DNA of 64,000 bases, from positions 23,865,195 to 23,929,194 of the forward strand of contig NC_088312.1 of NCBI RefSeq assembly GCF_910592395.1. Reading direction: 5' to 3'. Every line of letters starts with the position of its first letter. Position 1 is the first letter of the stretch. Below, one piece after another: positions 6,601 through 57,116 of the stretch. Below the pieces are notes generated by a model. The model searched no databases. It was not told the DNA's origin and saw only the letters and a program-made list of their open reading frames with translations. This stretch comes from Lineus longissimus. Taxonomy: Eukaryota > Nemertea > Pilidiophora > Heteronemertea > Lineidae. Both the position numbers and the translations under genes were made by a program.

Positions 6601-9600
6601 AGCAAGTGGCTTGAAACTTGGTAAGTCTGGGGGATGTGAAGTTTTGGATTGCAATGAAGCAACCCAGATTCTGTGTTGGAATTTTTCTCTCAAAAATTCG
6701 AAAATATAAGATTTCAAAAATATTTCTTCTGAATCTCTTGAGTTGGTCCTGAAAACTTGAGATACGAATTTTTTACCCCCCCCCCAAATTTTCTAAAGAA
6801 TATTAAAAAAAAATTATTTTCTCAATCTCTTGACTTTGTCATGAAAATTTGAGATAAGATTTTTTTCCCCGAAATAAAAAAAAATTCTGAAAAAATTAAG
6901 AAATAATTTTTTTTTGTTCAAAATGCATATCTATCAGTTTTTTATCAATTTTTGAAAAAAAGTTATTTTTTACATGAATTTTCGAATATGAAAGTTATGT
7001 TGGAGCTAGCCGACATAAGATCTATGTTGAGCACAATTGCCTGTGTAGTTTTCCTTTAACCTTACCGGAGAGGATATGCTTTTGAATTGCTCAAATCCAC
7101 CTTTGACATCCATCTTGCCTGCAAAGATTCCCCATCACTATCGGCTAATGTTTTCAACCTTCCACCTGTGAATGAGAAACACTCATCTTTACATTTGTTA
7201 TAGCCGTCACCAATTCACATGATGCTTCCTTTGGCACTCTCAGCAGATGCTTGGCAGTGTTACCACTGGGCTCCAGTCTTACCTGTCACAACATGTGAAT
7301 CTGAACCATGTCCAGGTACCAATCTCCACACAGAGTCATGTCTTACCTGTCACATGTCCTATAAATGTGAACCTGAACCATGTACAGGTACCAATCTCCA
7401 CACAGAGTAATGTATCGGGTTCAAATTCTAGTCCAGTTTCCTCGAGAACTTCCCTCTTTGCACCTTCCTGCAAGCAGAAAGAACACCAGGTGCTATCATA
7501 TGTCATTGTGGGCCTCGAACTAAAAGGTCCTTAATATGAAAGCACAGTGCAAAAGACTTTCTACTATCAGATCAAGACTCATGAAATTTTCACCATCGGC
7601 TTAACAATTCATTGGCTTAAGCCTCTGCATTGGCCAACTACATGGAAACTAGATGTCTATGCATCTGGGTAACCCTGTCTGGCTTCATGCCTCTGCTTCA
7701 GAGACATTCAAGCTTATACTGGAACTCAAGTTGAAGACAGCCATGTGGCCAGCCGTAATGAGTCTGGTGAAACTTTTCTTTGAGAAAGCTTACTATGTCC
7801 ACATCTGGACACATCTGATAGAGACCACTATTACCGTACATTTAGTCACAAGCGTTGTCTGTGTTTAGTAACATTATAAAATCATCTCATATGATATAAT
7901 ATAATAACCGATTAAGTGACACAATCACCAACACATTGTTTAAACAAAAGTTCAACTTCATAACAAAGTTTTAAATTGGCCTTAAAATTCAGTTCGTCCA
8001 CTTGACCTTGCTGTAGTCACTTCAGGTAAGAACTAATCAAATTCATTTGGGTTGAAATTTGGAGCAAAGAATGAAGGGTCACCACAAAGGACATGAGAAT
8101 GTTGAATAAGTTGTTATCTTAAACCAAAGCTTAGTTAGGATATTTGATTATGTGCTTACAGTGACATTATGTCACAAGTATGAACTCAGTTGTTGACCTG
8201 GTATCAGCTGGTTGTGTGACACCATAGGTCACCAGGTCAGCCTTGACAAGGGATGGCATGTTAAACTGATCCACTGGCAATCATTCATTGCACTGATCTG
8301 GGCATCTGGTGGACAAACTCTGTCTTCAAAGGAACATGGATGCGTTTGAAGAACTTGAAAGAGCTGTCAGGAGCAATGATATAGGCAAGGTAGGGCTTGG
8401 GCTCACAAGAGCTGTCCATCTGACAGATCACACAGGTCAAATGCTGTACTACTACAAAACTGAAGTGAAAATGTTTGATTTTACAGTTCTAATACCAGTG
8501 CATTTTGTGTTCAGACACAATCAGTCATTACTAGACTTGACAAACATAAATTCTGTAAGGGATGACTCTGCCAATTTTAAAACCCAATAAAAAGCCGGTT
8601 TACAGTTGGGGAACTTGCAAACAAAAGACTTTCACTTTCGCAAACAAATGAAGTACATGTACTCCACACATTCATTCACACTGTTCATTCAGCACTAAAC
8701 AGCAATACATGTAACTGAATGTCAACAACAACCAATGCAACCATTTTCTCTCTTGCAGGTGTCTGAGGTAATGACCAACTGCCCTGATCTGCGAGACCCC
8801 GGCTTCTCATGGATCATCAACGATGCCATCAGACTTGGTCTAACAGAGATCACACGTGTTCTGCTCGAGAATGGTGTCCTAGCAAACAGCACGAGCAAGA
8901 ACTTATGTAAACCATCCCCCCTCATGAATGCTTGTAAACTGGGCAATAAGAACATTGTGAGATTATTGTTGGAGCATGGTGCTGCTGTGGATGGCGAAGA
9001 CAACTTTGGCGTCCCACCTCTTGTGCTTGCAGCTCGGAGCGGCAACATGGAAATCTTTGATTTACTCCTTACCTGGAAGGCAAACGTTGACCAAAGAATT
9101 GATTACGAGTTTGTCAAATGGCCTTTTAACAGTCAGAGGATGAACCAGGCACAATTAGAATGCATGAGTGCCCCCTATGAACAAAACACAGTACTTATTG
9201 AAGCATGCCGAGCACAACATTTTGAAATTGTTCAAAAGTTATTGTTGCATGGCGCCAACTTGCATGCGGCCAACCAAGCTAAAGAAACACCCTTGCATAT
9301 CACGGCGTGTCCACGACCCTGGTTGTCTTATCAGCACTACAACAAACGCATCCTACCAACGGCACCAGAAATTCTTCATTGTTTACTTCAACATGGAGCA
9401 GACGTCAATGCTCACAACATGTTTGGGCAGACGCCATTGGATCGTACACTAGCTGAAATTGAACATATCCTAAACTGTAAAATTCTCAGCGAAAATGTGA
9501 CAGAAACATTGCAAAAACACTTCAGGAATTTCTACAACATGGTCCAGGCTGGCAGCAACTTGAAAATCTACGCCAATCCTGCTAATGGAGAGGAGGATCT

Positions 9601-11287
9601 GTACGGGTTTCTACTGGATGCTTATCTACAACATCAAGATTCTGATTCACCCAATAAAGCATGTCTGCAGGAATTCAAAAAGGTCTTGAAAGCCATTGAC
9701 TTAGCCCTGGGGAAGCCACGAGAAGTGTTTGTAAGGAGATTCATCATGGAGATAAGAGAATCGATCGAGAAACGCGTCATCGTCGCTTGGTTAAAGTCCA
9801 GACAGCGAAACTGTCGTAGCCTGAAGGAATTGTGTGGAACTAGAGTCCGGCAGGTCCTACACCCACCGCTGATGCTGAATGTCTTCACAGAAGAACTGGA
9901 ATTGCCACTGAACCTGCGTGAATATCTTATCAAGTCATAATGATAAGAACAAACCTTGGTTCAAACGGACAAGACAGTGCTGTTGCTACCAGAGCAGAGG
10001 CATAATCAGGCTTTATACAGGCACTATGGGTCCACCTTACAGAAGGTGTCACATGAATCGCACGAAAGTCCTGAGGAACATTCCTGGCTTAGCATGTTTC
10101 ATGTTGATTTTGTTCTTTGAGTGTGACAGGCTGCTGCTGGTCCCGGAAGACAGATTTCATTAGTCATTGTATATCAACTGAAATAAGCCAGAATGGATCC
10201 TGGAAGCATGATTATTCCTGCAAACTGGTGCTTGTGTACAGTTAGGAAGTTAATATATATGGTGCTGCCCAAAGACAGAACAATAAAGTAATGAGAAGAC
10301 TGTCACTGCAAAAACTGACATACGGTTAAAATCATCAATAAGTGTAGACAACATTTTGTAGAATGTTTGAGGACATTTCTTGATGGATCCCTTCATTGTC
10401 AGGACTTGTCGTTGAAGAAGACCCATTTTGAAAAATACAGTCACCTCTGAATTTTAATTTTTTCAGGAATAAAATGTCTCTTTATTTGTTCAATATCTAA
10501 TCTGAGTGCTTCATTCCAATCACTCCAGGGTCTGCTTGCTTCCTTGAGATTTTGACGAGTACACTTGAAGATGAAGTGGGCCAGTTCCCGTGTAGTGGAT
10601 TACTTATTGGATGCCTCAGTAAAGGTGCATCTGAACACTCTTCCAAATAAGTACATAGAGTTTTAAATGTTATTTGTTGTGCCCACCATATAGTAACACT
10701 GCGCGTATGTCATGCTACTAACTTCACTAAATTCCCACTTACGATAATAGTTTCATCGGGTTCCATCCTGCCGGCAGGTAGGTACCACTTCCCCCGACAC
10801 GATTCCTTGGCCTCCTGCATGAAGAGGACATCCCCAGCATCATTGATGACGATCCCTGCCACGATGTAACACACAGAATGCTTGGTGATAGGATGGAACT
10901 CATCTTCTAGAAAAATGGGAATTGGACAATGGGAATTGGACATTGTACACAAGCATATTTTACACTCACAATCCGAAGAAGGGGTACCGTATCCATATCC
11001 GTATCTGTATCCATGGACATGGCCGAGCCAAATACAAATGCTTCGGGTCCACAGAGCATACTCATCTCCCCAAATCAAAAGTAGTTATCTTGTTAAGTCA
11101 GAGCTAGTAATAGTATACAGAGAATTGATGTTCTATTCGACTTACGACTTTGAGATGTGACATCCACCAGACAATGAGCTGTTTTCAGTGGAATTCTTCC
11201 AGCCAGGAGAGAGCCAAGATCAGCCTCAACGGCAGTAAAATCTCCCACAGTGTCTGATGAGTGTTCTGAGAGGGTATTTGATGCCAT
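3690..11287 (-). CDS. NUDT18: NUDT18-like Nudix hydrolase (7 coding exons)
   Basis: Coding exons (minus strand order): 11287-11146, 10906-10743, 7467-7347, 7165-7066, 6562-6422, 4421-4310, 3950-3690. All introns are GT-AG and all phases join, giving 346 residues; the human protein is of similar length. The Nudix box G-x5-E-x7-REV-L-EE-T-GL is complete across exons 2/3 (about G93 to L115, with catalytic E108, E111 and E112). It is preceded by CRGKWYLPAGRMEP and followed by ESLQARW, both typical of NUDT18. Known role of the family: hydrolysis of oxidised purine diphosphates such as 8-oxo-dGDP, sanitising the nucleotide pool. The C-terminal half (about 190-346) has no catalytic motif but follows the NUDT18 family pattern. 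Intron 2 holds a whole ankyrin/SOCS-box gene on the other strand. Intron 5 holds two tandem arrays. The exon 3 donor region is duplicated once. The start is an MASN ATG; the first two exons join in phase 1. Confidence 0.9.
4121..4242. repeat. Inverted repeat with 22-bp perfect arms
   Basis: Arms 4121-4142 and 4221-4242 (CAATCGAAGTGAACTGTCTG... and its exact complement) flank a 78-bp loop. It lies in the last intron of NUDT18, downstream of the exon 6 donor. It may be a small fold-back element. Confidence 0.75.
4440..4665. repeat. AT-rich tandem repeat next to the NUDT18 exon 6 acceptor
   Basis: Four to five imperfect copies of a 49-60-bp unit containing TAGTCACTTGTG and GATACTACATGTATA. On the gene's strand the last copy runs into the splice acceptor at 4422-4423, so the array is made of the intron's 3' end, without exon sequence. 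Confidence 0.85.
4702..6134. repeat. Minisatellite, 40-bp unit (about 36 copies)
   Basis: Highly regular 40-bp units containing CTGCTCCAGCCTTGTTTTGT and GCTCTAGCAGTATGGGGGCT, in NUDT18 intron 5. Variants cluster (TACGAGGGCT, CATCG for CTTGT), showing local homogenisation. The plus strand of each unit has an acceptor-like pyrimidine tract plus CTCTAGCAG, but no plus-strand gene is seen here. Confidence 0.95.
7277..7412 (-). repeat. Two-copy duplication of the NUDT18 exon 3 donor
   Basis: A 64-72-bp unit is present twice. Each copy has the last ~53 bp of exon 3 (CTCTGTGTGGAGATTGG...), then GTGACAG, then the donor GTAAGA. Copy 7341-7412 is the true exon end. Copy 7277-7340 lies in the intron, has lost 8 bp and has drifted slightly. 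Confidence 0.85.
8336..9940 (+). CDS. Ankyrin-repeat, SOCS-box protein (nested gene 1)
   Basis: Two coding exons, 8336-8389 and 8759-9940, joined in phase 0 (AAG|GTAGGG ... CTTGCAG|GTG), giving 411 residues. Ankyrin repeats are visible at about 69-101, 102-134, 160-190 and 193-240, with motifs such as SPLMNACKLGNKNIVRLLLEHGA and TPLHITA...HCLLQHGADVNAHN. The C-terminal ~45 residues (SLKELCGTRVRQVL ... LPLNLREYL) match a SOCS box. Proteins of this architecture (ASB family) are established substrate receptors of Cullin5-Elongin B/C ubiquitin ligases: the ankyrin part binds the target and the SOCS box binds Elongin C. I cannot name the orthologue or the target. The whole gene lies within NUDT18 intron 2 on the opposite strand. 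Upstream 5' UTR exons are possible. Confidence 0.85.
10282..10287 (+). promoter_or_regulatory. Candidate poly(A) signal of nested ankyrin/SOCS gene
   Basis: AATAAA about 340 nt after the stop codon, still inside NUDT18 intron 2. A second AATAAA lies near 10,468. Confidence 0.45.
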
Positions 11288-13855: not shown

Positions 13856-14899
13856 ATGAGTTTCCCTCTACAAGAATCTCTGAGCGGCATGGATAATTTC
13901 CTTGCTGACGATTTGTACCAGGCTGTAAAGAAACCAGATATACCCAAACTGGAGGGCTTCTTCAAGGCAGGACTGAGCCCCAATCATGTCTTTACAAGTG
14001 AGAAGAATGCTGATGCACTTGGTAAAACGCTCCTCCAGGTCGCCACATCTGAGAAGAATGCAGATGTGGTGAAGTTGCTCATCAAGCATGGATGTGACGT
14101 GAACTATGGCGTCAAGAAGATCATTACCCCAAACTCGACATCATATCGACTTGATAAATGTGTGGAGGATTTGACACAGACTTGTTTGTTTTATTCTATT
14201 TGTACAGAGAGTGTTGAGATCGTTGAGATTCTGACCGAGGCAGGTGCAAATGTGAACTTGGAGTGCAGAGATAAGATGTGTGCTCTATCTCACGCGATCG
14301 ACACTGAAAACATTGAGATTATCACCAGTATTGCACGCATGAAAAAATGTGATATTAATGCACAGGACTTGTATGGGTTGTCTCCACTGCATATAGCTGT
14401 AATCCATGCAAAGCCAGATATTGTGACTCTTCTTTTGAGAAAGAAGGCCGTTGTTGATCTGGAGCAGTGCCAGGGAGGCAGTCCTCTGTTTTTTGCCAGT
14501 GATTACATGACACTCAAGTCACTCATAAGTTATGGTGCCGACCCAAATCATCGAGCTTATAATGATCATGGCTCAGTTACACCCATCTATACGACACTGA
14601 AACGTGCCAGAGATCCCAAGATCATTGAAGCTCTAGTTGAAGCAGGTGCTCAAGTGACGAATGCAGTTCTAGCAGACGGACCCAGTACCCCAAGGATTCT
14701 CCAGGAATACCCAGATCTCCATGCATGGCTAAAGACTTGTCATAAAACACCTCAAAGTCTCAAGTTACAGACTTGTTTGAAAATTCGAGACGTGTTAAGA
14801 GTTGCATCGAATGGTGTTGGACTTGGTGTGAGATGTAGAACAAATCAGCTGCCCCTTCCAAATGTGTTGAAGCATTATGTCCATTTAGATCATATTTGA
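13856..14899 (+). CDS. Ankyrin-repeat, SOCS-box protein 2
   Basis: An intronless 347-codon frame. A strong acceptor (CTCATTTCAG) about 85 nt upstream suggests a spliced 5' UTR. I take the first in-frame ATG (MSFPLQESL); a second Met at residue 12 (MDNFLADDLY) could also serve and aligns better with the start of nested gene 1. About six ankyrin repeats are visible between residues 50 and 285 (TLLQVATSEKNADVVKLLIK, GLSPLHIAVIHAKPDIVTLL, SPLFFASDYMTLKSLISYGAD). The last ~48 residues (QSLKLQTCLKIRDVL ... LPLPNVLKHYV) fit a SOCS box. Expected role, by family: substrate adaptor of a Cullin5 E3 ligase. It shares architecture with the gene at 8.3 kb but only low sequence identity, so an old rather than recent duplication is likely. 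Confidence 0.85.
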   Translation: MSFPLQESLSGMDNFLADDLYQAVKKPDIPKLEGFFKAGLSPNHVFTSEKNADALGKTLLQVATSEKNADVVKLLIKHGCDVNYGVKKIITPNSTSYRLDKCVEDLTQTCLFYSICTESVEIVEILTEAGANVNLECRDKMCALSHAIDTENIEIITSIARMKKCDINAQDLYGLSPLHIAVIHAKPDIVTLLLRKKAVVDLEQCQGGSPLFFASDYMTLKSLISYGADPNHRAYNDHGSVTPIYTTLKRARDPKIIEALVEAGAQVTNAVLADGPSTPRILQEYPDLHAWLKTCHKTPQSLKLQTCLKIRDVLRVASNGVGLGVRCRTNQLPLPNVLKHYVHLDHI

Positions 14900-16958: not shown

Positions 16959-19900
16959 TTACCTCGTCTTCATACAGATCAAGTTCTTCATCATATCGAA
17001 GCTGTTGCCATCGGGTTGTACACTCAGCATGCACCCGCTCGGCGTCTTGACTTGGAGGAATCCATTCTCATCGAGGCCTTGCACTGTAACACCCTCACTC
17101 TCACTCTCAAGGCATACTTTGGCATCCCTGCAAGGAAACAAAATGGAGTCACAAATTTCCACTTGTGTAAATCAGCTGCAACCTTCTGCTGGGGGAAATG
17201 TTTCAGTTCAATTCCTCAGTTGAAATAAAATATGGAAGTATTTCCTATAAATTGATTTCTTTGACAGACTGCAAATATCTCGGATATGACTTAAGGATAT
17301 TCCTTCACAGATTGATTAAGGACTAAATCAATGTTAATGGTTCAGGAGCTTTTTGCTTGTAGGTATTGCTTACCCATGAAGCCAATGTTGATACTGAGAT
17401 ATTGCTTACCCATGAAGTCAATGCTGTTACTGAGATATTGCTTACCCATGAAGCCAATGCTGATAATGAGATATTGCTTACCCATGAAGCCAAATGCTGA
17501 TACTGAGGTATTGCTTACCCATGAAGCCAATGCTGATACAGAAATATTGCTTACCCATGAAGCCAATGCTGATAATGAGATATTGCTTACCCATGAAGCC
17601 AGTGCTGATAATGAGAGATTGCTTACCCATGAAGCCAATGCTGATAATATAACTTGAGGAATATGTCGGGTCCATGAGACTGAAACTCATCGATCAGCGA
17701 TTCAATCTGTGTCACAGTTCGTCCAATCAGCTGCTCGATGGAAAATGGCATCAATGCTGCTCCGTGTTCATGGTTGTATTGGTCAATGATGTCGTTGACA
17801 CAGATTGTGGGATCCTTGTTGTTGACGTTGAATCCACAGCCTGCAATATGAGAACATTGATAAGCAGAATAGATTAGATGCACTAGAGGGGCTGTGATCA
17901 ACTTCTGTTGGCCAGTCATCACTGGAAAGAAATAGAATACTTATCTCCTGAAGTGCTGATCAAGACTACAGTTGACAATATACAGGCATGCAGACCTTTC
18001 TTTTCAATTGGTGAATTCTGTTCCATTTGATTTCTTCTTCTTCCTCTGCCTTTGGAATAGACAGGCTGGATTTGAATATCTTTTAACTGAGTGAGGTAAA
18101 GAATAGAGGGTTGTACCTATGATTGCATGAACCTGGTCCTTCATTATCGACGAGCTGACAAGGACACCACCCATCTTCACTGTGCGACCGTAATAGATAT
18201 CATTTGGCCACTTCAACCGGACGGCTAGCTCTTCATATCCTGGCAGCGAGCGGACAGCTAGGACGACGGCCAAGGACGCAATGTGTTGGAGAAATGGGAG
18301 CCTGTGGCCCAGGTTCGAGTTGAGAGAGAACTGGACATTGAGAGAGAATAAGGCACATCCTTCAGGGCTCAGCCAGGCATTTCCCCCTCGGCCTATAGGA
18401 AGAGAAGACAATGAGAGAGAATAAGGCACATCCTTCAGGGCTCAGCCAGACATTTCCCCCTCGGCCTATAGGAAGAGAAGACATTGAGAGAGAATAAGGC
18501 ACATCCTTCAGGGCTCAGCCAGACATTTCCCCCTCGGCCTATAGGAAGAGAAGACAATGAGAGAGAATAAGGCACATCCTTCACGGCTCAGCCAGGCATT
18601 TCCCCCCGGCCTATAGGAAGAGAAGACATTGAGAGAGAATAAGGCACATCCTTCAGGGCTCAGCCAGGCATTTCCCCCCCGGCCTATAGGAAGAGAAGAC
18701 ATTGAGAGAGAATAAGGCACATCCTTCAGGGCTCAGCCAGGCATTTCCCCCCCGGCCTATAGGAAGAGAAGACAATGAGAGAGAATAAGGCACATCCTTC
18801 AGGGCTCAGCCAGGCATTCCCCCCCGGCCTATAGGAAGAGAAGACAATGAGAGAGAATAAGGCACATCCTTCAGGGCTCAGCCAGGCATTTCCCCCCCGG
18901 CCTATAGGAAGAGAAGACAATGAGAGAGAATAAGGCACATCCTTCAGGGCTCAGCCAGGCATTCCCCCCCGGCCTATAGGAAGAGAAGACAATGAGAGAG
19001 AATAAGGCACATCCTTCAGGGCTCAGCCAGGCATTCCCCCCCGGCCTATAGGAAGAGAAGACAATGAGAGAGAATAAGGCACATCCTTCACGGCTCAGCC
19101 AGGCATTTCCCCCTTGGCCTATAGGAAGAGAAGACAATGAGAGAGAATAAGGCACATCCTTCAGGGCTCAGCCAGGCATTTCCCCCCCGGCCTATAGGAA
19201 GAGAAGACAATGAGAGAGAATAAGGCACATCCTTCAGGGCTCAGCCAGGCATTCCCCCCCGGCCTATAGGAAGAGAAGACAATGAGAGAGAATAAGGCAC
19301 ATCCTTCAGGGCTCAGCCAGGCATTTCCCCCCGGCCTATAGGAAGAGAAGACAATGAGAGAGAATAAGGCACATCCTTCACGGCTCAGCCAGGCATTTCC
19401 CCCCGGCCTATAGGAAGAGAAGACATTGAGAGAGAATAAGGCACATCCTTCACGGCTATTCATCCTGTACATAGAAATCAAAAATTCAGATCTCACTGTT
19501 TAGAACACCTCACCTTTGCCAGCTGTCTGCCTACAAGCAATAGCAATGACACCAGCTTCCTTGGGAATGTTCAGCATAAACCTGTAAAAAAGACCCATTA
19601 AGTTCATAGTTTGCATTGTTTTATGTTTATTGCTTAGCTGATGGCTCTTGTGGGCAACACTGTTGGCTAATTTTCATACTGTTTGAAACAGAGCATGAAT
19701 ATGTCAGGTGTACAAAGGCTCACTATAGCAACAATCAACAAAGGAGCCTCGAGATCTGGTTGCTCTGAAAAATCACCTGAAGCGTAACGTCATTGAGATA
19801 TTGCACGTACCCATCTAAAACGTCCTGCGTACTCTTCATAACGTCTGCATAGAACACGACACGTCCAAGGGTTGAAGTCCCAAGATTCTCTTCATATTTC

Positions 19901-22900
19901 CTCAGGTCTATCTTGAGGATTTCGAGGTTTTCCCCGTGTAACACCGGGGTATCTGACGGCGAGACCGTCTCTGGAAGATCATGTGGGTCATTCAGGAATG
20001 TCAGGCTGCCGTTGCGGGTTGTCAGTTTGTTGTTTTGAAGTCTTGGCTCGATTGATGACCAGAATTGAGACAACATTTCCTAAAAAGAGGCATTTATAGA
20101 AGCAGTCAGGGGTTTTGTTATCTTTCTTGGGTAACTCACGTTGTCTGAACTGTGAAGGAATATCGGAGTGACACCAGGCACCTCTTCCTTGGGTAACTCA
20201 CCTTGTCTGAACTGTGAAGGAATATCGGAGTGACACCAGGCACCTCTTCCTTGGGTAACTCACCTTGTCTGAACTGTGAAGGAATATCGGAGTGACACCA
20301 GGCACCTCTTCCCTGGGTAACTCACCTCGTCTGAACTGTGAAGGAATATCGGAGTGACACCAGGCACCTCTTCCTTGGGTAACTCACCTTGTCTGAACTG
20401 TGAAGGAATATCGGAGTGACACCAGGCACCTCTTCCCTGGGTAACTCACCTTGTCTGAACTGTGAAGGAATATCGGAGTGACACCAGGCACCTCTTCCTT
20501 GACCGAATTGATGCCAAGATCGGCAAAGAGGTCACGGAGGATTTCAAACTTGTTCTCATTTGATTGTTTGAGGAGGGAAAATATCTCGGTGCTGATCGCC
20601 ATCTGACTTGGGTTCTTCTCAAGATATACCTGAAACATCAAAGTGAAAGCGGTTTATAAACATAGCACAGCACACCAGCATAGCAAACTAGCATAGCACA
20701 CTAGCATAGTCACAACACTGGCAATTGTGTCCAATTGGGAATGCGGCCTTTAATTCATTGGAAAAAATACTAGCATTCAGCTGAAAATCTTCTTTTTAAT
20801 TGAATGGGTCATGATTAAAACATAAGGCATGAAATATGCTGCCACTTTCAGGTGAAAAGTACTATCTCAGTCCCTAGCCAATTTTCTCACAGGCTTGGGG
20901 AGATGAAATGTCCATTGTGTGCAAACACCTGAACCTCATTACGAAGTGTTCATCCTAACAAGGTTCCACTGTAATTGTCATGTAGCCTGTCTTACCCTAC
21001 CTGAGTGAGCAACATTGCACCGTCACTCGCTTCATCTTTCACCGACATGATCACAGGTTTATTTGCCACGGAATCCAACGCCAGCACTCGCACATTCTCC
21101 GCTAAGTCCTCGCCGGAGTAAACATATCTGCTCGAGATAACATGAACCTTTCTCCAAGATTTATAAGACAGAGACACAATACCTAAACTTTGAGTCTGTC
21201 CTTTTTCACGCTGAGCGAAATGCTGGTCCAAACAGCTACAGAAGCTAACAACCTTTCCACCATTTTTGAAATAGGATATAAAAGTTTGGTCCACATGATC
21301 ATACAGATTTTCCACACAGATGATAAGAAGGGCCGTATTGTCGCTCCAGGGTGTGGTGTTCACTTGGTCATGCTTGAGATGGTAGAGAGTATAACTGTTG
21401 GCATTAATGCACTTGCCTACCACACACTTGATATCCTCAAAAATTCTCACCGAATCTTTCTTCCCCGAATAGATGAGTACGTTTGGTGGTTTACAAGACA
21501 TTTCTCCACCTCTCGATTCAGGTTGGTAAAAACCTGAAGATCTGTTCAAATTACTATCCAAGTTCTCCTTGTCAGGGCTTGGAGAGGAGATGTCAGATTC
21601 AGATAAGAATCCAGTGTCATGGCTGTCTGGTGTGATTTTATACATGGCAGACGGTGCATCCAATCCTGACAATTCTGTATTTTCTTTCAAATCGTCAGCA
21701 ATGCCGTCCATTCTTTTCAGCAGGGTGTGGTTCACGTCTGTAAACTCTGCGATCCTTTCCTGACCACCCGATCCAAAATGATCGATATCAGGTTGAATGT
21801 TGTCACAAATATCTCCGGCATCAGATGTTGATGCCGTAGACTCATTCGAATCTACGATATCCAACTCTAGGTGTTCCATTGGAATCGACAGCCTTGGTAC
21901 ATGAAAATCAGGCATCTGTATTTCACTGATGTTCTCTAATGACGAACACTTTGATGTCATCGGTGACATGAAAACTGGTACCGCCTCGCACTGACTGTCT
22001 GTCCTTAGCAGGCCAATAGGTTTCCCGACAACATCCACCGCTGAAAATAGCAATATCAATTTTCAAGATGCAAGACATGGGTGAGAATGTTAAGTCACCT
22101 ATGGAACTTTTTAAAGAGACAGAAGCCACTCTCTCTATAAAAGATAGGTGGGAGCGACTGGTGGGCCATCCTCCTGCATACACGAACAACAAAATGACTC
22201 CATCCGACACACAAGTCTGTATTAGGTGAAATGGCCTGATACGTCAATACACTGATGGGCCAGCCATGTTCTATAATTCACAGTTCTTGCATAAACAGCA
22301 CTTCAGATTGACACTTGAACGCACTCGCCACAGTTGGCCAACTGCATACATTTATTGACACAATGTAGGCCTACTGCAGAAGCTCTATATTTAGGATATC
22401 TTTGGGACCGATTAATGCGGGGCATGTCCATAACAGGGAGGTGTCCTGACTAGAGGTCAAACTGAACAAATGAAATGGCCAGGGCCATTGTGCTCACCTC
22501 ATGTGGAGGAAAGATGGATAAAGAGCATGGTATTGTGTCATGTAGTGTTAGGTTTGATGTAGGTCCAAGCAATAACAATTTCCCCAAAATGGCCAATTTA
22601 CAGTACATTCGACCTCTGTGACCTTGAAAAGTAGGTCAAATCAAAGAAGACCCGGGTGACACATTGAATGGTTGTTAGAATTAGATGTACCTATGATATA
22701 AAATTGGTGCCAATCGGGCAAGTCATTACTAGGAATAATGGCATTTTGAAGAATTTAGGATTTGGCCCTCTCCCTGGAGGCCAAACGGCAAATCAGATCG
22801 CACCAAACTTGGGTACCTAAGATCACCTGACCAAGGGGTACATGTGTACTTAATTTGTGATCAATAGTCATTGCAGTTAAGAAATGTGCCATAGTTACGG

Positions 22901-23518
22901 CCTGACGGCGAATTTACGCCATTTGACCTCTGTGACCTTGACAAGAAGGTCAAATTAAAAACCTGTGTGACATATACTGTATGGTGGTTAGACGTACCCA
23001 TGATATCAAATTGGTGGCAATCGGGCAAGAAGTTAAGGAATAATCACATTTTTAAGGTTTTTGGATTTTGCCCCCTGGTGGTCAAGTGGTGAATCATATT
23101 GGACCAAACTTCGGTCCCTAAGATCACCTGACTAAGGGGTAAATGTGTACCAAATTTGGTATCAATAGTCATTGCAGTTTAGAAACGTGCCATCGTTACA
23201 TCCTAACGGCCAATTTACACCATTTGACCTCTGTGACCTTGAAAAGGAGGTCAAATCAAAAACCCGGAGGATATATGATGCACCTTTGCCAGAAGTACCT
23301 ACCATATTTTTTTCAAAATTTCCCGACTACTATTAAGGGAGATATTGCATATTTTCACTTTTAACGTTTGGCCCCCTGGTGGCCAAACCATGAAACGAAT
23401 CGGACCGAAACTTGGTCTCCCAGGTGTCATTACATAAGGGTACATGTGTACCAAGTTTCAACTCAATAGCTCTAACAGTTACGAAACGTGCCCTGCTAAC
23501 GGACGACGGACGACGACG

Positions 23519-23559
<41 letters not shown>

Positions 23560-26500
23560 ACGACGGACGCCACGGTATGGGATAAGCTCACCTCTGCTAA
23601 GAGGTGAGCTAAAAAGCCAATGACCCAGACTTGCTGTCCTTCATGAGAGGGCATCTTTCTAGCAGACAACTGTTAGTGTGGCTCTTCATCCACATGAAAA
23701 CAAGGATATTTACAAATGATGGCATGGACTTCTTGGGTGAGAAGTCAAATACTTACAAACGAGCTGTTTTATCTCAAGAACTTCATCAGTTACTAGATAT
23801 CCGTTCATGAAAGCTGTACCAAGGGCCATGTAGTTCTCAGCTGAACACTCCATCAGGATACTAAATGGATCACCAGACTTCCAAGCCAGGGGAGTAGACA
23901 AGCTCGAAACCTACAAATAAAGGTAATGTTAACCTTGATATCGGGCCTGAAGAGTATGATTAGTGGATTGAAGGCCATCGTTTACATTGTTTGACATCAG
24001 AAGATAGTCTGTTACTTCATGCCTGCTGCACTGGGGTCAACCCAGTGCCCAGTCTGATTTAACATCGTATGACATTCTCTTCACCAACATTTTTTGGCAA
24101 CAGGACATCTGTCCCTTGAAGGAGTTATACAAATGCCAGAGTGTGTCTAAAACGTAAACTGTATTTCAGAAGATTCTAAACACAACCTCAGTTTGATATT
24201 AAGTCTATGTTTGGCATGCCATACAAGGAACCCAGGATATGAAAGTGACTTGTCTAAGGTCACAAGCATAAGTGTTGGCTATCAAAGCTACCGTGCCTCA
24301 TTCATGAGTATGCACTGTAACAACTAGCGCTCCAATAGAACTATGAACCATCAAGGCTTACCTGGATTCTTTTATTCATCGGCACAGAAAAGGACCAGGC
24401 CAGATAGTCGTTGGTGTCGGTCGGTAACTTGGCCTCGAGGAGTACACAGACATAGTCTTCATCAGTCATGTAGTGTGGAGTGTGGTACTGGCTGTCCAGG
24501 CAGCAAGCCCACCCAGCCATTTCGATTGAGAGCTGAAAGGAATGATATGGTACTGGCTGTCCAGGCAGCAAGTCCACACAGCCATTTCGATTGAGAGCTG
24601 ATAGTAATGATAAGGTACTGGCTGTCCAGGCAGCAAGTCCACACAGCCATTTCGATTGAGAGCTGAAAGGAATGATATGGTATTGGCTGTCCAGGCAGCA
24701 AGTCCACACAGCCATTTCGATTGAGAGCTGAAAGGAATGATATGGTACTGGCTGTCCAGGCAGCAAGTCCACACAGCCATTTCGATTGAGAGCTGAAAGG
24801 AATGATATGGTATTGGCTGTCCAGGCAGCAAGCCCACCCAGCCATTTCGATTGAGAGCTGAAAGGAATGATATGGTACTGGCTGTCCAGGCAGCAAGCCC
24901 ACCCAGCCATTTCGATTGAGAGCTGAAAGGAATGATATGGTATTGGCTGTCCAGGCAGCAAGCCCACACAGCCATTTCGATTGAGAGCTGAAAGGAATGA
25001 TATGGTACTGGCTGTCCAGGCAGCAAGCCCACCCAGCCATTTCGATTGAGAGCTGATAGTAATGATAAGGTACTGGCTGTCCAGGCAGCAAGCCCACCCA
25101 GCCATTTCGATTGAGAGCTGAAAGGAATGATATGGTATTGGCTGTCCAGGCAGCAAGCCCACCCAGCCATTTCGATTGAGAGCTGAAAGGAATGATATGG
25201 TACTGGCTGTCCAGGCAGCAAGCCCACCCAGCCATTTCGATTGAGAGCTGAAAGGAATGATATGGTACTGGCTGTCCAGGCAGCAAGTCCACACAGCCAT
25301 TTCGATTGAGAGCTGAAAGGAATGATATGGTATTGGCTGTCCAGGCAGCAAGCCCACACAGCCATTTCGATTGAGAGCTGAAAGGAATGATATGGTACTG
25401 GCTGTCCAGGCAGCAAGTCCACCCAGCCATTTCGATTGAGAGCTGAAAGGAATGATATGGTACTGGCTGTCCAGGCAGCAAGCCCACCCAGCCATTTCGA
25501 TTGAGAGCTGAAAGGAATGATATGGTATTGGCTGTCCAGGCAGCAAGCCCACCCAGCCATTTCGATTGAGAGCTGAAAGGAATGATATGGTATTGGCTGT
25601 CCAGGCAGCAAGCCCACCCAGCCATTTCGATTGAGAGCTGAAAGGAATGATATGGTACTGGCTGTCCAGGCAGCAAGTCCACACAGCCATTTCGATTGAG
25701 AGCTGAAAGGAATGATATGGTATTGGCTGTCCAGGCAGCAAGCCCACACAGCCATTTCGATTGAGAGCTGAAAGGAATGATATGGTACTGGCTGTCCAGG
25801 CAGCAAGTCCACACAGCCATTTCGATTGAGAGCTGAAAGGAATGATATGGTACTGGCTGTCCAGGCAGCAAGTCCACACAGCCATTTCGATTGAGAGCTG
25901 AAAGGAATGATATGGTACTGGCTGTCCAGGCAGCAAGCCCACCCAGCCATTTCGATTGAGAGCTGAAAGGAATGATATGGTATTGGCTGTCCAGGCAGCA
26001 AGTCCACACAGCCATTTCGATTGAGAGCTGAAAGGAATGATATGGTACTGGCTGTCCAGGCAGCAAGCCCACCCAGCCATTTCGATTGAGAGCTGATAGT
26101 AGTGATAAGGTACTGGCTGTCCAGGCAGCAAGTCCACACAGCCATTTCGATTGAGAGCTGAAAGGAATGATATGGTACTTGGATATTAGACTCTTAGACG
26201 ATATAAAACATAACAGTTCTTCCGCTTTATTCAGGAATTCTTTGCTACAAAATTCGATCTCCGTCCTTCTCCTTCAGCGCGCCATTCGACCCCCGCGGAC
26301 CAAGTCCGCACCAGCCGGATGTGAGCCGAAGACAGTCACATCCAACTGGGAAACTATTAACTCCTATCCATCCTCCTTTCCCCGTTAAAACCTTAACGGT
26401 AATCAAATCTATTAAACTTATGTACATGTGTATACTATTGATAATCAATGTCCCAACTGATAGAACCCCAAATTTAACCTATTGAGTACTGGACTCACAG

Positions 26501-38177: not shown

Positions 38178-39406
38178 TTACAGTCCGACGTGGTCTAGCT
38201 CTCTGGCGGTCTGGCATTCAAAACAGGCTCCGCAGAAGGCAACAGCGCACGAATCGCTGCAGATGGAACCCTGAAATAAAAAACAGAACCGAGTATATAT
38301 ATATATATGAATATAAGTGAAACAATTTGAGTGGACCGGTCCAAGCAGGACACTCATTCAATACTGCTCTCACAGGATTGTACATGATTAGAAATCACTG
38401 AATCAGTACTCGTTTGATAGAGACGGCGACTCTCTTCGACTGCGTAGGTTTCCTCTTGGCTCTCCTGTATCATCCTTCTTCACATTACAAATCGCCTAAT
38501 TGTTTACAGAGCTAATAATGTTCCATGCTCCATTTTACGAAACATTGATACTGCACGCAAAACAATGCTATTTTGGATGGTGAAGGCCGTCAGTCTTTCA
38601 CTTCGATCTTAGTCAGGCTCTGTCCGAACTTTGAAGTTTCAGATGAAATAAATGTTTCATTTTCAAAAATCAGATTTCTATTTTTTCGTGAAATTGAGTC
38701 ATGTTGTTCTGCTCTCAAATCAGTATCAAATAACTGATAACCGTGTTTCATCCCAACATGGGCTCATGGGCTCAGGAAAGGAACTTTATTGATAAAGAGG
38801 AGGGGGGATTGTTATCAAAGCCCAAAATAGACGTTTCCTGAATATTGTTGTAGCGGGAAAAGACGACCACATCTTGAAAGAACGTACCTGGATTCCGTAT
38901 TGTGTTCTCAGCTTGGTCCTTAGGGCCACTTGTCCTCCCGGACAGCAGATAGAAACGCACTGATGCTCACCCAAACGACTGGCGTTGCTGCACATCAGAC
39001 AGGGCATACAGAAATAACCATAGCAACCTGAAGGAAAAGTAAACTCTCATATAGGCCTACGGAAAAAGGTGAATTTTCATGGAGGCTTTATGGTTTGAGC
39101 GTCACTTACTGATGCTCGAGGAAGCAGTGTTCACCTGTAGAGGTTGTACAACTGGTTTAGGTCAAACATATCGACATTTCATTGTCTGTTTCTTTCCAAG
39201 TTGAAGTTTGGTCAGAAGTTGGAAGGCTGCGCATCTTCTCCAACATTACATCGAGAAAGTACGCTTTCTGCTGACATTAATGAATAAGCTGCGAGAATGG
39301 GTGATCACTTACATGACTTGATATCTCCCAAACATCCAAACAGTCCTGAGGACATTTCCCGTGTGCCCTGCTGCACATGTCCTGGTTGGCTAGTGATGAC
39401 CGACAT
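38178..39406 (-). CDS. PLAC8/cornifelin-like cysteine-rich protein 1
   Basis: Exons 39406-39313, 39027-38888, 38270-38178; phases 1 and 0 join cleanly, giving 108 residues. The product has the PLAC8 pattern: a cysteine cluster (SCCYGYFCMPCLMC), a middle QCVSICCPGG segment, KLRTQYGIQGS, then CSDSCAVAFCGACFECQTARELDH at the C-terminus. The family is found across animals and plants; roles include cell-size control, metal handling and epidermal envelope, and the function here is unknown. An acceptor (CTATTAG) directly before G-ATG implies a 5' UTR intron. The same arrangement is seen in the two relatives at 44.6-46.3 and 54.2-57.1 kb, so the three are tandem paralogues, the third inverted. This copy has no array at its exon 2 donor. 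Confidence 0.9.
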
Positions 39407-42872: not shown

Positions 42873-43244
42873 TACCAGTCGATGATACTCGGTCAACATG
42901 TCCACGTTAAATAGGAAGGCAAATAGCGAAAGTCAACACGCGAAAGATTTTTAATGGTTCTCCGCAAAAACGTATAAACAGACGTTACATAACCAGAGAA
43001 TACTTTGACCTAGGACGTTTGATAATCTCCAATATAAAAGTTACTGTTTGCACAAGTTAGTCGAATTTACCTCGCTTGAGTTATGCATTGTAACATATAG
43101 TTATCATGTAACTGAAAGGGCGTGTGAACCAAATTCAACCCTTGAACAAACCACCGTAAACCGAAGTGACTACACGGGGACTCTCGAATTCTCGCATTAT
43201 TCCCGTGTATACTAACAGTGCATATCTTCTGATGCGTGACAGAA

Positions 43245-44635
43245 GACCTCTCCCTGACGTCACATCCTTTCATAGCCCAACCATCTAACTCACGTGACAT
43301 CTGGCACTCAAAGCAAACAGTGCAACAGCAGGCGTGACCGAAAACCTCTCCCTGACCTCACATCCTGTCATAGCCCAACCATATCTAACTCGCGTGACGT
43401 CTGGCACTCAAAGCAAACAGTACAACAGCAGGAGTTACCGAAGTCCTCTCCCTGACGTCACATCCTGTCATAGCCCAACCATATCTAACTCGCGTGACGT
43501 CTGGCACTCAAAGCAAGCAGTGCAACAGCAGGCGTGACCGAAAACCTCTCCCTGACGTCACATCTTGTCATAGCCCAACCATATCTAACTCGCGTGACGT
43601 CTGGCACTCAAAGCAAGCTGTGCAACAGCAGGCGTGACCGAAAACCTCTCCCTGACGTCACATCTTGTCATAGCCCAACCATATCTAACTCGCGTGACGT
43701 CTGGCACTCAAAGCAAGCAGTGCAACAGCAGGAGTTACCGAAGTCCTCTCCCTGACGTCACATCTTGGCATAGCCCAACCATATCTAACTCGCGTGACGT
43801 CTGGCACTCAAAGCAAGCAGTGCAACAGCAGGAGTTACCGAAGTCCTCTCCCTGACGTCACATCTTGTCATAGCCCAACCATATCTAACTCACGTGACGT
43901 CTGGCACTCAAAGCAAGCTGTGCAACAGCAGGCGTGACCGAAAACCTCTCCCTGACGTCACATCTTGTCATAGCCCAACCATATCTAACTCGCGTGACGT
44001 CTGGCACTCAAAGCAAGCAGTGCAACAGCAGGCGTGACAGAAAACCTCTCCCTGACGTCACATCTTGTCATAGCCCAACCATATCTAACTCGCGTGACGT
44101 CTGGCACTCAAAGCAAGCTGTGCAACAGCAGGCGTGACCGAAAACCTCTCCCTGACGTCACATCTTGTCATAGCCCAACCATATCTAACTCGCGTGACGT
44201 CTGGCACTCAAAGCAAGCAGTGCAACAGCAGGAGTTACCGAAGTCCTCTCCCTGACGTCACATCTTGTCATAGCCCAACCATCTAACTCGCGTGACGTCT
44301 GGCACTCAAAGCAAGCTGTGCAACAGCAGGCGTGACCGAAAACCTCTCCCTGACGTCACATCTTGTCATAGCCCAACCATATCTAACTCGCGTGACGTCT
44401 GGCACTCAAAGCAAGCAGTGCAACAGCAGGAGTTACCGAAGTCCTCTCCCTGACGTCACATCTTGTCATAGCCCAACCATCTAACTCGCGTGACGTCTGG
44501 CACTCAAAGCAAGCAGTGCAACAGCAGGCCTGACCGAAAACCTCTCCCTGACGTCACATCTTGTCATAGCCCAACCATATCTAACTCGCGTGACGTCTGG
44601 CACTCAAAGCAAGCAGTGCAACAGCAGGCGTGACA
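43245..44635 (-). repeat. Minisatellite made from the last exon of PLAC8-like gene 2, 100-bp unit, about 14 copies
   Basis: Each ~100-bp unit contains the end of the coding exon (TGCTGTTGCACTGCTTGC ... GTTGGGCTATGA, encoding CCCTACFECQTSRELDMVGL and stop) plus ~37 bp of 3' sequence. The copy joined to the gene is the highest-coordinate one. The rest form the 3' UTR or downstream DNA. Units alternate between GGCGTGAC and GGAGTTAC subtypes. Confidence 0.93.
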
Positions 44636-46265
44636 GAAGTCTTGGCACAGTGAGCCCTGAAAGGTATAGACATGAAAATAATCATCAAACCTTCCGGGTG
44701 AAACCTTTACGGGCGGAGCATGTACCTTCTCTCCGGGGGAGAGGCGGCCGGTGGTAAGGAGTGGCAATTGGTCTAACGTGCAAGCCTGTCAGAAAGGCAT
44801 GTCTTTCCCGTAAGAGGGCACTTATCCCATTGCGCTTCCGTACAAAAACGTAGTTTGTTTCCATGGAGTTTTTTCTGTGGCCCGGTGTAAAAGTAAAAAG
44901 TGTCCCCCCTGGAAAAAGTGTCCGGCCCTATTGTATTCTGCAATATGGTTCTATAGAGACCCTGACCGTCAATAGCTCTGAGATTGAAGCGCATAATAGA
45001 ATCCTTTGTTCCCGGACATTTTATCCTAGCACATTTTAAACTTCTACACCGGGACCGATTGGCCAACAGCAACTACATGCACACGTACTCTATTAGTCCT
45101 TTGTATGCCTGAGCGGTTGCATGGCGATACTGCTGAAGGGACAACAACAGGCCTGGAGCTCGAGCAACTTTGCGGGGGTGGTAGGGAGTTTTCGCAAAGC
45201 CCCCGAAATGCCAACGTGAAAGTCTATCCCATTGTTCAACATTGTTATCAGGATATCGAATAATATGTAACATAGGCGTTCACGTTGGCGGTTCGGGGGT
45301 TTTGCGAAAACTCCCTACTGAAGACTAATTCTTACCGTGATGCCGTAGGCCTACTGGGCCTGTTACTTGGCTATGAGAGCGATGCTGCTGAAGGGGCACC
45401 AACGGGCACTCAAGCGGCCGTGCAGTATGGTCATGCATTTACGTTTTATTCTTACCGTGATGCCGTACTGGGCCCGTAACTTGGCTCTGAGAGCGATACT
45501 GCTGAAGGGGCAACAACGGGCACTCAAGCGGCCGTGCAGTATGGTCATGCATTTACGTTTTATTCTTACCGTGATGCCGTAGGCCTACTGGGCCTGTTAC
45601 TTGGCTCTGAGAGCGATACTGCTGAAGGGGCAACAACGGGCACTCGAGCGGCCGTGCAGTATGGTCATGCATTTACATTTTATTCTTACCGTGATGCCGT
45701 ACTGGGCCCGTAACTTGGCTCTGAGAGCGATACTGCTAAAGGGGCAACAACAGGCACTCGGTCGCTCTCCAAGACGGCGTGCGTTGTTGGCCATTAGACA
45801 TGGGAGGCAAAAGCATGATTTGCAGCCTGAAAAAGGAAAGGGTTGTTAGCTTTGTAGACGCTGATTGAGTGTTTGTTGGCCTCGGACAGGACTTATATTA
45901 TCCCGATAGCGGAATTGAATTAGCTTGGGGTTGTTGGCATTCAGAGACAGACAGGTTTAACTCTCGTGAAGCTATCACTTACATCGACACCGATTTGGAC
46001 TAAGCTACATATCATCCCTTATGTGGCTGTTTTCTTGCTTGATAAGTATGTCTTACGAAAAACTATGTGTCCGTCGATTATCTCTGGTTTACTGAGTGAT
46101 TCCACCAGGACTTATTATTCCAAAAAGTGCGTTCATCCAAAGCTTCAGTGGTTTTATCAAATAGTCAATAGCTTACATGCTCCACAATCGTCACAGCAGT
46201 CACCGACCCCTGTCGTCATCTGCCGGGCTTGGGGTGGCGTGATAGGTTGCTGGGTGATCGTCTTG
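44564..46265 (-). CDS. PLAC8/cornifelin-like cysteine-rich protein 2 (ancestral start codon lost)
   Basis: Exons 46265-46177, 45826-45690, 44656-44564, joined in phases 1 and 0. The cysteine domain is complete: CCDDCGACCKSCFCLPCLM, SACCCPFSSIALRAKLRAQYGITGS, CQDFCHACCCTACFECQTSRELDMVGL. In the paralogues the acceptor is followed by G-ATG; here the same place reads C-AAG, so the usual start is gone. The next in-frame ATG (46,219; MTTGVGDCC) would give 90 residues and keep the whole domain, losing only the Pro/Gln-rich N-terminus. An upstream coding exon is an alternative. Arrays surround the exon 2 donor and the terminal exon. Function unknown; family roles are diverse. Confidence 0.8.
44915..45065. 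repeat. Dispersed repeat, copy 2
   Basis: Diverged copy of 42,305-42,455, inside intron 2 of PLAC8-like gene 2. Confidence 0.6.
45181..45318. mobile_element. Hairpin MITE, 138 bp
   Basis: Arms of about 40 bp (GTAGGGAGTTTTCGCAAA... / ...GCGAAAACTCCCTAC) with CCAACGTGAA/TTCACGTTGG at their inner ends. It sits in intron 2 of PLAC8-like gene 2, against the outermost repeat copy. Confidence 0.75.
45335..45760 (-). repeat. Minisatellite on exon 2 donor of PLAC8-like gene 2, about 115-bp unit, 4 copies
   Basis: Each unit has ~79 bp of exon 2 end (GCCCCTTCAGCAGTATCGCT ... GGCATCACG), the donor GTAAGA and ~30 bp of intron. The first donor is at 45,689. A degenerate fifth fragment is visible near 45,120-45,160. 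Confidence 0.9.
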
Positions 46266-54216: not shown

Positions 54217-57102
54217 ATGGCTGCAGTGACTCAACAACCCGGTGCGCTGACACCGCCACCAACGAAAGAAATGTCAACAGGTCTCCTAAACTGTTGTTCA
54301 GATGTCAAAGCTTGTAAGCCTTCTATCTTATCTTGCAATTGAAGCTTAATGCTGAACTTTTTTGTAATTTGTTTCGATATATACTCGTGCTCAAACATAA
54401 GGGACGGGGAAGAGAATTCCCGAGCTTAATTACAGAAAGCTTGAATAAGCAGTAATAAGCAGCTTGTACCTGATGCGTATTTGTGTGATTACAGGCTGTC
54501 TGGGCTACTTTTGTCTGCCCTGCCTCATGATGAAGAACGCCAAGCGTCTCGGGGAGCATCCGTGTGTTTGCTGCTGCGGCGCGAGCAGTGTTGCCCTCCG
54601 TCTCAAGCTGAGGACCATGTACGGTATTAGGGTAAGTATGACTCGGGGAGCATCCGTGTGTTGGCTGTTGCGGCGCGAGCAGTGTTGCCCTCCGTCTCAA
54701 GCTGAGGACCATGTACGGTATTAGGGTAAGTATGACTCGATGAGCATCCGTGTGTTTGCTGCTGCGGCGCGAGCAGTGTTGCCCTCCGTCTCAAGCTGAG
54801 GACCATGTACGGTATTAGGGTAAGTATGACTCGGGGAGCATCCGTGTGTTGGCAGTTGCGGCGCGAGCAGTGTTGCCCTCCGTCTCAAGCTGAGGACCAT
54901 GTACGGTATTAGGGTAAGTATGACTCGATGAGCATCCGTGTGTTTGCTGCTGCGGCGCGAGCAGTGTTGCCCTCCGTCTCAAGCTGAGGACCATGTACGG
55001 TATTAGGGTAAGTATGACTCGGGGAGCATCCGTGTGCTGGCTGTTGCGGCGCGAGCAGTGTTGCCCTCCGTCTCAAGCTGAGGACCATGTACGGTATTAG
55101 GGTAAGTATGACTCGGGGAGCATCCGTGTGTTGGCTGTTGCGGCGCGAGCAGTGTTGCCCTCCGTCTCAAGCTGAGGACCATGTACGGTATTAGGGTAAG
55201 TATGACTCGATGAGCATCCGTGTGTTTGCTGCTGCGGCGCGAGCAGTGTTGCCCTCCGTCTCAAGCTGAGGACCATGTACGGTATTAGGGTAAGTATGAC
55301 TCGGGGAGCATCCGTGTGTTGGCAGTTGCGGCGCGAGCAGTGTTGCCCTCCGTCTCAAGCTGAGGACCATGTACGGTATTAGGGTAAGTATGACTCGATG
55401 AGCATCCGTGTGTTTGCTGCTGCGGCGCGAGCAGTGTTGCCCTCCGTCTCAAGCTGAGGACCATGTACGGTATTAGGGTAAGTATGACTCGGGGAGCATC
55501 CGTGTGCTGGCTGTTGCGGCGCGAGCAGTGTTGCCCTCCGTCTCAAGCTGAGGACCATGTACGGTATTAGGGTAAGTATGACTCGGGGAGCATCCGTGTG
55601 TTTGCTGCTGCGGCGCGAGCAGTGTTGCCCTCCGTCTCAAGCTGAGGACCATGTACGGTATTAGGGTAAGTATGACTCGGGGAGCATCCGTGTGTTGGGT
55701 GTTGCGGCGCGAGCAGTGTTGCCCTCCGTCTCAAGCTGAGGACCATGTACGGTATTAGGGTAAGTATGACTCGGGGAGCATCCGTGTGTTGGCTGTTGCG
55801 GCGCGAGCAGTGTTGCCCTCCGTCTCAAGTTGAGGACCATGTACGGTATTAGGGTAAGTATGACTCGGGGAGCATCCGTGTGTTGGGTGTTGCGGCGCGA
55901 GCAGTGTTGCCCTCCGTCTCAAGCTGAGGACCATGTACGGTATTAGGGTAAGTATGACTCGGGGAGCATCCGTGTGTTGGCTGTTGCGGCGCGAGCAGTG
56001 TTGCCCTCCGTCTCAAGCTGAGGACCATGTACGGTATTAGGGTAAGTATGACCCGGGGAGCATCCGTGTGCTGGCTGTTGCGGCGCGAGCAGTGTTGCCC
56101 TCCGTCTCAAGCTGAGGACCATGTACGGTATTAGGGTGAGTATGACTCGGGGAGCATCCGTGTGTTGGCTGTTGCGGCGCGAGCAGTGTTGCTCTCCGTC
56201 TCAAGCTGAGGACCATGTACGGTATTAGGGTAAGTATGACTCGGGGAGCATCCGTCTGTTGGCTGTTGCGGCGCGAGCAGTGTTGCCCTTCCGTCTCAAG
56301 CTGAGGACCATGTACGGTATTAGGGTAAGTATGACTCGGGGAGCATCCGTGTGTTGGCTGTTGCGGCGCGAGCAGTGTTGCCCTCCGTCTCAAGCTGAGG
56401 ACCATGTACGGTATTAGGGTAAGTATGACTCGGGGAGCATCCGTCAGTTGGCTGCTGCGGCGCGAGCAGTGTTGCCCTTCGTCTCAAGCTGAGGACCATG
56501 TACGGTATTAGGGTAAGTATGACTCGGGGAGCATCCGTGTGTTGGCTGTTGCGGCGCGAGCAGTGTTGCCCTCCGTCTCAAGCTGAGGACCATGTACGGT
56601 ATTAGGGTAAGTATGACTCGGGGAGCATCCGTGTGTTGGCAGTTGCGGCGCGAGCAGTGTTGCCTTCGGCCTCAAGCTGAGGACCATGTACGATATTAGG
56701 GTAAGTATGACTCGGGGAGCATCCGTGTGTTGGCAGTTGCGGCGCGAGCAGTGTTGCCCTCCGTCTCAAGCTGAGGACCATGTACGGTATTAGGGTAAGT
56801 ATGACTCGGGGAGCATCCGTGTGTTGGCTGTTGCGGCGCGAGCAGTGTTGCCTTCGGCCTCAAGCTGAGGAGCATGATCACCACATAATGTTTCTGTATC
56901 TTCTCATTGATCTGCAGCAGATTAACCAAATCCTTATTGATGAGTTGGTGTATTCATTCTTCCAAAGCCACCGTTTTTTATGTTTCTTGTTTTTCACTTG
57001 CAGGGAACACTTTGCCATGATTACTGCGTGGCGATGTTCTGTGGAGCGTGCTTCGAGTGCCAGACATCGAGAGAGTTGGATCATCTTGGTGTTCCAGAGT
57101 AA
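54217..57102 (+). CDS. PLAC8/cornifelin-like cysteine-rich protein 3
   Basis: Exons 54217-54313, 54495-54631, 57004-57102 in phases 1 and 0, giving 110 residues. An N-terminal Pro-rich stretch (TQQPGALTPPPTKEM) is followed by the PLAC8 cysteine domain: NCCSDVKACCLGYFCLPCLM, CVCCCGASSVALRLKLRTMY, CHDYCVAMFCGACFECQTSR, ending ELDHLGVPE. The acceptor TTTTTCCAG directly before G-ATG implies a 5' UTR intron, as in the other two copies. Intron 2 (2.37 kb) is almost wholly a tandem array of the exon 2 end plus its donor. The family is small, cysteine-rich and often membrane- or cortex-associated; the function here is unknown. Opposite in orientation to the two relatives on its left. Confidence 0.9.
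54560..56875 (+). repeat. Minisatellite on exon 2 donor of PLAC8-like gene 3, 94-bp unit, about 24 copies
   Basis: Each unit is about 84 bp of exon 2 (CTCGGGGAGCATCCGTGTG ... ACGGTATTAGG) plus only ~10 bp of intron (GTAAGTATGA). Every copy has a strong AGG|GTAAGT donor. The first copy is the real exon. One copy has GTGAGT and a few have 1-bp indels; the last copy is truncated at 56,870. Confidence 0.95.
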
Positions 57103-57116
57103 CCACCGAGCGTGAA

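Follow-up and report, generated by a model that had tools for sequence, protein, structure and literature searches.

Tandem arrays across coding-exon edges near a chromosome end of the nemertean Lineus longissimus

Why several tandem arrays in one short stretch of a genome should be built from the edges of coding exons, and what becomes of the extra copies, is the question raised by the locus described here. The window, that is, the whole 64-kb stretch of DNA that was analysed, is the final 64 kb of the chromosome-5 record (C5) of Lineus longissimus. This record falls 6 to 16 kb below the size published, in rounded form, for chromosome 5, and no telomere repeat was seen by eye in its last 600 bases. 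The window carries the genes HLCS (biotin--protein ligase) and NUDT18, three PLAC8-like genes, and two ankyrin-repeat genes. A search for a plasmid with a 184-base query gave no match.

HLCS lies on the minus strand (16959 to 34963), and its 11 coding exons were assembled into an open frame of 924 amino acids with canonical intron ends throughout. Among the matches listed, the top relative is the biotin--protein ligase of Lingula, with 50% identity at 99% coverage of a query composed of exons 5 to 11. NUDT18, also on the minus strand (3690 to 11287), has seven coding exons with GT/AG ends and an open frame of 346 amino acids, for which the best PDB match is NUDT18 itself (3gg6). Once spliced, the PLAC8-like genes score 52.5, 45.2, and 41.9 bits against a Pfam cut-off of 34.4, and their exon 2 frames on their own stay under it. 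The edges of exons 2 and 3 of PLAC8-like gene 1 (38178 to 39027, minus strand) bear no array, and one more PLAC8-like site in the genome, at C5:1178965, is without tandem matches. Because the reading frames of HLCS, NUDT18, and the PLAC8-like genes are intact, the exon edges are fixed independently of the arrays. The two ankyrin-repeat genes are on the plus strand, at 8336 to 9940 (within an intron of NUDT18) and at about 13856 to 14899, with SOCS-box matches slightly below the Pfam cut-off. Two further repeats lie near coding sequence, namely, a 52-bp array (4443 to 4661) that ends 22 bases from the exon 6 acceptor of NUDT18 and does not include the splice site, and a 68-bp duplication (57116 to 57253) that starts 14 bases past the stop codon of PLAC8-like gene 3.

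Arrays were called by TRF and then split into units, with exon edges taken from complete frames with GT/AG ends, and in each array the site in use was assumed to be that of the copy nearest the exon, this being the choice that keeps the frame. The seven junction arrays of the original prediction, with 39, 15, 8, 6, 24, 4, and 2 copies, are all present, and the unit of each spans a coding-exon edge that is backed by an intact reading frame. In HLCS, on the minus strand, the exon 3 acceptor array has an exon-proximal part at 24483 to 26179 (26 units of 65 bp, each with about 15 intron and 50 exon nucleotides; acceptor taken as 24532) and a distal part at 33399 to 34246 (13 units, of 65 bp as in the proximal part). 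The exon 6 donor array (20121 to 20501) comprises six units of 62 bp, with about 48 exon and 14 intron nucleotides and the donor taken as 20450, while the exon 9 acceptor array (18334 to 19457) comprises 15 units of 72 to 73 bp, with 14 intron and about 58 exon nucleotides and the acceptor taken as 18392. The exon 10 donor array (17361 to 17646) is made of eight units of 36 bp (about 18 exon and 18 intron nucleotides; donor taken as 17627). At the exon 3 donor of NUDT18 (7277 to 7408, minus strand) the junction is present in two copies, the second 8 nucleotides shorter, with the donor taken as 7347; this duplication was read directly in the sequence, as TRF made no call. The exon 2 donor array of PLAC8-like gene 2 (45328 to 45759, minus strand) has four units of about 114 to 120 bp, the first with 70 exon and 44 intron nucleotides (donor taken as 45690), and that of PLAC8-like gene 3 (54548 to 56876, plus strand) has 24 units of 94 bp with 84 exon and 10 intron nucleotides (donor taken as 54631), followed by a 25th copy that ends short of the donor. 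The observation that every copy retains its donor or acceptor was borne out: GT or AG is intact in each of the 98 copies long enough to include the site.

The two parts of the HLCS exon 3 array are a single array of 39 copies (26 plus 13) that was split by the insertion of a BEL/Pao LTR retrotransposon on the minus strand (26180 to 33398). The element contains an open frame at 27448 to 33156 (1902 amino acids) and is bounded by identical LTRs of 191 bp (26180 to 26370 and 33208 to 33398) and a 5-bp target site duplication, AGTAC. Its Pao-type peptidase and RT score above the Pfam cut-off and its integrase domains below, so that the features by which membership in BEL/Pao was judged (peptidase, RT, LTRs, and 5-bp target duplication) were all found. 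The element is young and its insertion recent, and the exon 3 array is older. A 38-bp minisatellite is internal to the element, at 27133 to 27441.

Of the seven arrays measured, five, the stop-codon array described below among them, have copies that diverge from their consensus by 1 to 3%, and divergence is higher in the arrays of HLCS exon 10 (6%) and PLAC8-like gene 2 (11%). Invariant unit columns are numerous, as in two arrays with 56 of 65 and 67 of 73 columns unvaried. Because many columns do not vary in any case, the retention of GT and AG says nothing about selection, and a constraint on the splice sites of the copies is unsupported. From the reading frames we infer that the exon-proximal sites are those in use: the arrays offer 91 alternative splice sites, and splicing at 83 of them would introduce a premature stop; of the 38 that belong to the HLCS exon 3 array, only 8 would keep the frame. 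Since so many of the alternatives would end the protein early, the exon-proximal site has to be chosen correctly.

The effect on intron length is large in several cases. HLCS intron 2 now measures 9968 bp and would measure roughly 274 bp with one copy (and with the 7.2 kb of BEL/Pao removed too); the corresponding lengths are 370 and roughly 60 bp for HLCS intron 6, 1121 and roughly 99 bp for intron 8, and 499 and roughly 247 bp for intron 10. NUDT18 intron 3 has 181 bp (roughly 115 bp with one copy), and intron 2 has 1033 bp in PLAC8-like gene 2 (roughly 685 bp) and 2372 bp in PLAC8-like gene 3 (roughly 116 bp).

An eighth array, absent from the original prediction, lies over the stop codon in the last exon of PLAC8-like gene 2 (43234 to 44638, minus strand). 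It is composed of 14 units of 98 to 100 bp, each with the last 60 coding bases of the gene, the stop, and about 37 bases of 3'UTR, and the coding end within the unit reads CCCTACFECQTSRELDMVGL before the stop and the 3'UTR. The first stop is at 44564. The protein end given by the first copy, CQTSRELDMVGL and then the stop, aligns with the ends of PLAC8-like gene 1 (CQTARELDHVGL, then the stop) and gene 3 (CQTSRELDHLGVPE, then the stop), and the 13 further copies are 3'UTR. TGA is kept in 13 of the 14 copies and is TGC in one. The unit thus keeps a coding boundary without containing any splice site of its gene, which makes the splicing-linked mechanism that had been entertained for these arrays less likely.

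Chance placement was evaluated in an effective window of 40.6 kb, left after removal of the extra copies and of BEL/Pao. The 19 TRF arrays with a score of at least 100 become 18 when the halves of the exon 3 array are joined and 17 without the array inside BEL/Pao, the two-copy NUDT18 case being outside this count. Six of the 17 straddle one of 44 splice edges, against 1.29 expected under random placement (P = 0.0009) and 1.22 under GC-matched placement (P = 0.0006), these and the following P values referring to annotatable genes only and being weakened by the fact that the window had been singled out for the straddling feature. A run with 41 edges agrees with that with 44. The addition of seven stop boundaries gives seven straddlers against about 1.5 expected (P about 0.0002); the rest of the arrays in the window cross none of the annotated coding edges. 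None of the 17 lies wholly within annotated coding sequence, where 2.03 were expected (probability of none, 0.11), and when wholly coding placements are forbidden, 1.81 straddlers are expected against the 7 observed (P = 0.0009).

These figures bear on the proposal that duplications of exon sequence are tolerated because the extra copies become intron. The proposal holds in so far as the extra copies are outside the coding sequence, most alternative sites would truncate the protein, no array is wholly coding, and the arrays supply much of the length of the affected introns. It falls short as a full account: survivorship alone predicts only 1.81 of the 7 straddling arrays, and therefore the loss of duplications inside exons is not enough to account for the excess. 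Something beyond a survivorship filter is needed, whether a preference for exon edges or the way in which the window was picked.

The original prediction had further suggested a general route by which the introns of this genome lengthen, and as worded this is unsupported. In a kinesin sample of 23 pieces (86,669 bases, with 69 of 150 exon matches inside and at most 138 exon ends), none of 10 arrays with a score of at least 100 straddles an exon edge, where simple arithmetic gives about one expected at random. Among the seven near-edge kinesin cases that were read, one array shares 13 bases with the end of a match and starts beyond the donor. The idea that exon edges are hot in general was rejected, as the intronic kinesin arrays are random relative to the edges (8 arrays, KS P = 0.71). 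In myosin, 88 exon matches contained no regular short-spaced series, which is a weak result, as pieces of about 20 amino acids fall under the E-value limit; the matches include two overlapping pairs, one at C1:1809808 and 1811021 (1.2 kb apart) and one at C1:18539747-18540519 (75 bases apart, one member with five internal stops).

An active bias, whereby duplication would start preferentially at exon edges through a link with transcription, splicing, or chromatin and survivorship would merely add to it, could supply the missing part of the excess. It would fit the persistence of the excess after GC matching and after wholly coding placements are forbidden (7 against 1.81), and the fact that the exon 2 donor bears an array in two PLAC8-like paralogues. 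We nevertheless hold it to be unlikely, given a stop-codon array that includes no splice site of its gene, kinesin arrays that neither straddle edges nor lie nearer to them than random, and a window that was chosen for the very feature to be explained.

Array density, measured with a TRF score of at least 100 and a period of at least 10, seems to vary with position on the chromosome. The window holds 19 arrays per 64 kb, which cover 28% of its bases, and ten 10-kb chromosome ends (two of these regions being half N) hold 26 arrays that cover 45%, much of it 15-bp satellite, versus 4 arrays and 1.8% of bases in five interior 10-kb regions. On C5, a region 290 kb inside the end (L054) has five arrays in 10 kb, and one that adjoins the window (L055) has three with a score of at least 100. 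In L055, the start of one array lies about 11 bases into an intron of a gene that we take to be PPIL4-like, and the exon is not included. Long arrays of the 15-bp satellite are found at six of the ten ends (L039, L041, L043, L049, L050, and L053), and TTAGGG repeats also at six (L042, L043, L049, L051, L052, and L053).

A scan of the units for strong donors returned 2 of 15 arrays at the chromosome ends versus 1.6% of control segments, 2 of 19 in the window (controls, 4.3%), none of 10 in the interior and C5 regions (controls, 5%), and none of 8 at the kinesin loci (controls, 5%, with overlaps counted twice). The scan is insensitive, because only 2 of the 19 window arrays reach the donor threshold. 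Acceptor-like motifs show no clear excess at the chromosome ends (7 of 15; controls, 37%), in the window (12 of 19; 48%), in the interior and C5 regions (4 of 10; 53%), or at the kinesin loci (4 of 8; 49%). Both donor hits at chromosome ends are in L039, the end of C1. One is an 81-bp unit present in two copies with TTCTAAAG followed by GTTAGT. The other is a 46-bp unit with two identical copies that end, after an open frame, in TTACTTCAG followed by GTAAG. The segment that carries this unit (L039:634-805, and L057) is subtelomeric: according to the search table it is matched over its full length at 15 places in the genome, of which the 12 with a measurable distance lie 9 to 149 kb from an end. 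It matches no Pfam family at the cut-off and is exon-like, its coding status being putative. Extra partial matches at 46-bp steps among its relatives indicate that the number of units varies. On C13, where 441 bases were read directly as the only such case among relatives at other ends, 10 donors stand in a row, versus two copies on C1, and the intron flank CAGTAGAACC follows the copies on both chromosomes. Copy number thus differs between subtelomeric copies, as seen in one haplotype only.

These duplications bear on a second account, in which arrays are dense, their placement is random, and the window is simply one of many in which several happened to fall on exon edges. P values of 0.0002 to 0.0009 would not be extreme if thousands of windows had been read, and the other arrays of the window do leave the annotated coding edges alone. 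Against it, ten ends that were not selected gave two donor-bearing, putatively coding duplications among 15 arrays, the unit of one duplication being repeated 10 times on C13, and we consider random placement with choice quite improbable. Although the copy numbers of long arrays can be wrong in long-read assemblies, an artefact of collapsed or expanded repeats that were joined wrongly has hardly any likelihood, considering the divergence among units, the BEL/Pao element with its target duplication inside one array, the intact flanking frames, and a published assembly made from 79-fold PacBio reads and Hi-C.

The best reading, and in our judgement a reasonably probable one, is that a subtelomeric minisatellite zone coincides with tolerance of copies that have turned non-coding. 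In minisatellite-rich zones, here near the chromosome ends, a break or slip would generate a short tandem duplication, seeded perhaps by microhomology of 1 to 4 shared bases at the junction. Such bases were noted in four cases, by eye and without a null, namely, ATTA in HLCS exon 10, CAAG in exon 6, and C and TCA in L039. The duplications would then grow by unequal exchange. Wholly coding ones would be removed by selection, and those that straddle an edge would be nearly harmless, as the spliceosome would keep to the exon-proximal site or translation would halt at the first stop. The added copies would become intron or 3'UTR, and the intron would lengthen with copies of exon sequence.

No named system had been thought to predict such arrays, but tandem repeats that span exon-intron boundaries are known as "mirages" in amphioxus (PMC3087553, PMC3902484). 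Mirages occur in Adh3, the globins BflGb6 and BflGb9, and TnC, and in imperfect form in PGBD5; they are found on donor and acceptor sides, with units of 10 to 160 bp and a splice signal in many copies, and differ in copy number between haplotypes, with no interference with regular splicing reported there (PMC3087553, PMC3902484). The globin paper proposes that mirages feed intron gain. The nemertean units likewise straddle exon-intron boundaries, seven in this window, at donors and acceptors, and the splice signal is kept in all copies that reach the site. They differ from those of amphioxus in belonging to Nemertea, in reaching up to 39 copies, in occurring several times in neighbouring genes, and in having a stop-codon version and a co-occurrence with chromosome ends. 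The Adh3 paper is reportedly that of Canestro and others from 2002. Intron gain by tandem genomic duplication, as reported for potato RdRp and Drosophila, also involves exon sequence that is duplicated internally, in tandem and with splice signals; there, new introns are created, whereas here existing introns lengthen and the exon structure is unchanged. Subtelomeric minisatellites are a general kind of repeat with high array density near chromosome ends, a density that is shared here, with the difference that the present units include coding-exon edges.

The host was also considered. In a tree of HLCS, the sequence falls outside the deuterostomes (support, 100/99) and outside the molluscs (99/94), and groups with moderate support (89/89) with the nemertean Tubulanus and two other sequences, although Lingula is slightly nearer when judged by path length. 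Over the RT region, the BEL/Pao element shares 99% identity with a protein of Lineus longissimus. Together, the tree and this match rule out amphioxus as the bearer of the arrays, and the cephalochordate host that defines mirages in the narrow sense, as a lancelet trait, is absent. Judged by their sequence anatomy, the worm arrays are mirages as a kind, not the lancelet trait in the narrow sense.

As far as can be told, four points are new: the phylum, the stop-codon version, the number of arrays that neighbouring genes carry, and the association with chromosome ends. This putative association is drawn from a single window, ten ends, five regions of the interior, two on C5, and a single gene family. 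Mirages are thereby extended from lancelets to a distant phylum, and the stop-codon version separates the edge of coding sequence from the splice site. Chromosome ends are indicated as the place to look for them. More tentatively, and as a possibility we would not call probable, a process at chromosome ends may start and enlarge tandem duplications with a preference for coding borders, donors, acceptors, and stops being treated alike, and may steadily lengthen the introns and 3'UTRs of subtelomeric genes with copies of the genes' own exon edges; on this view, mirages would be a feature of subtelomeres with independent origins in lancelets and nemerteans. In the 46-bp subtelomeric family, with its two and 10 copies, the growth of a donor-bearing array can be traced among related copies of differing number, and the growth of introns from copies of exons is therefore open to test.
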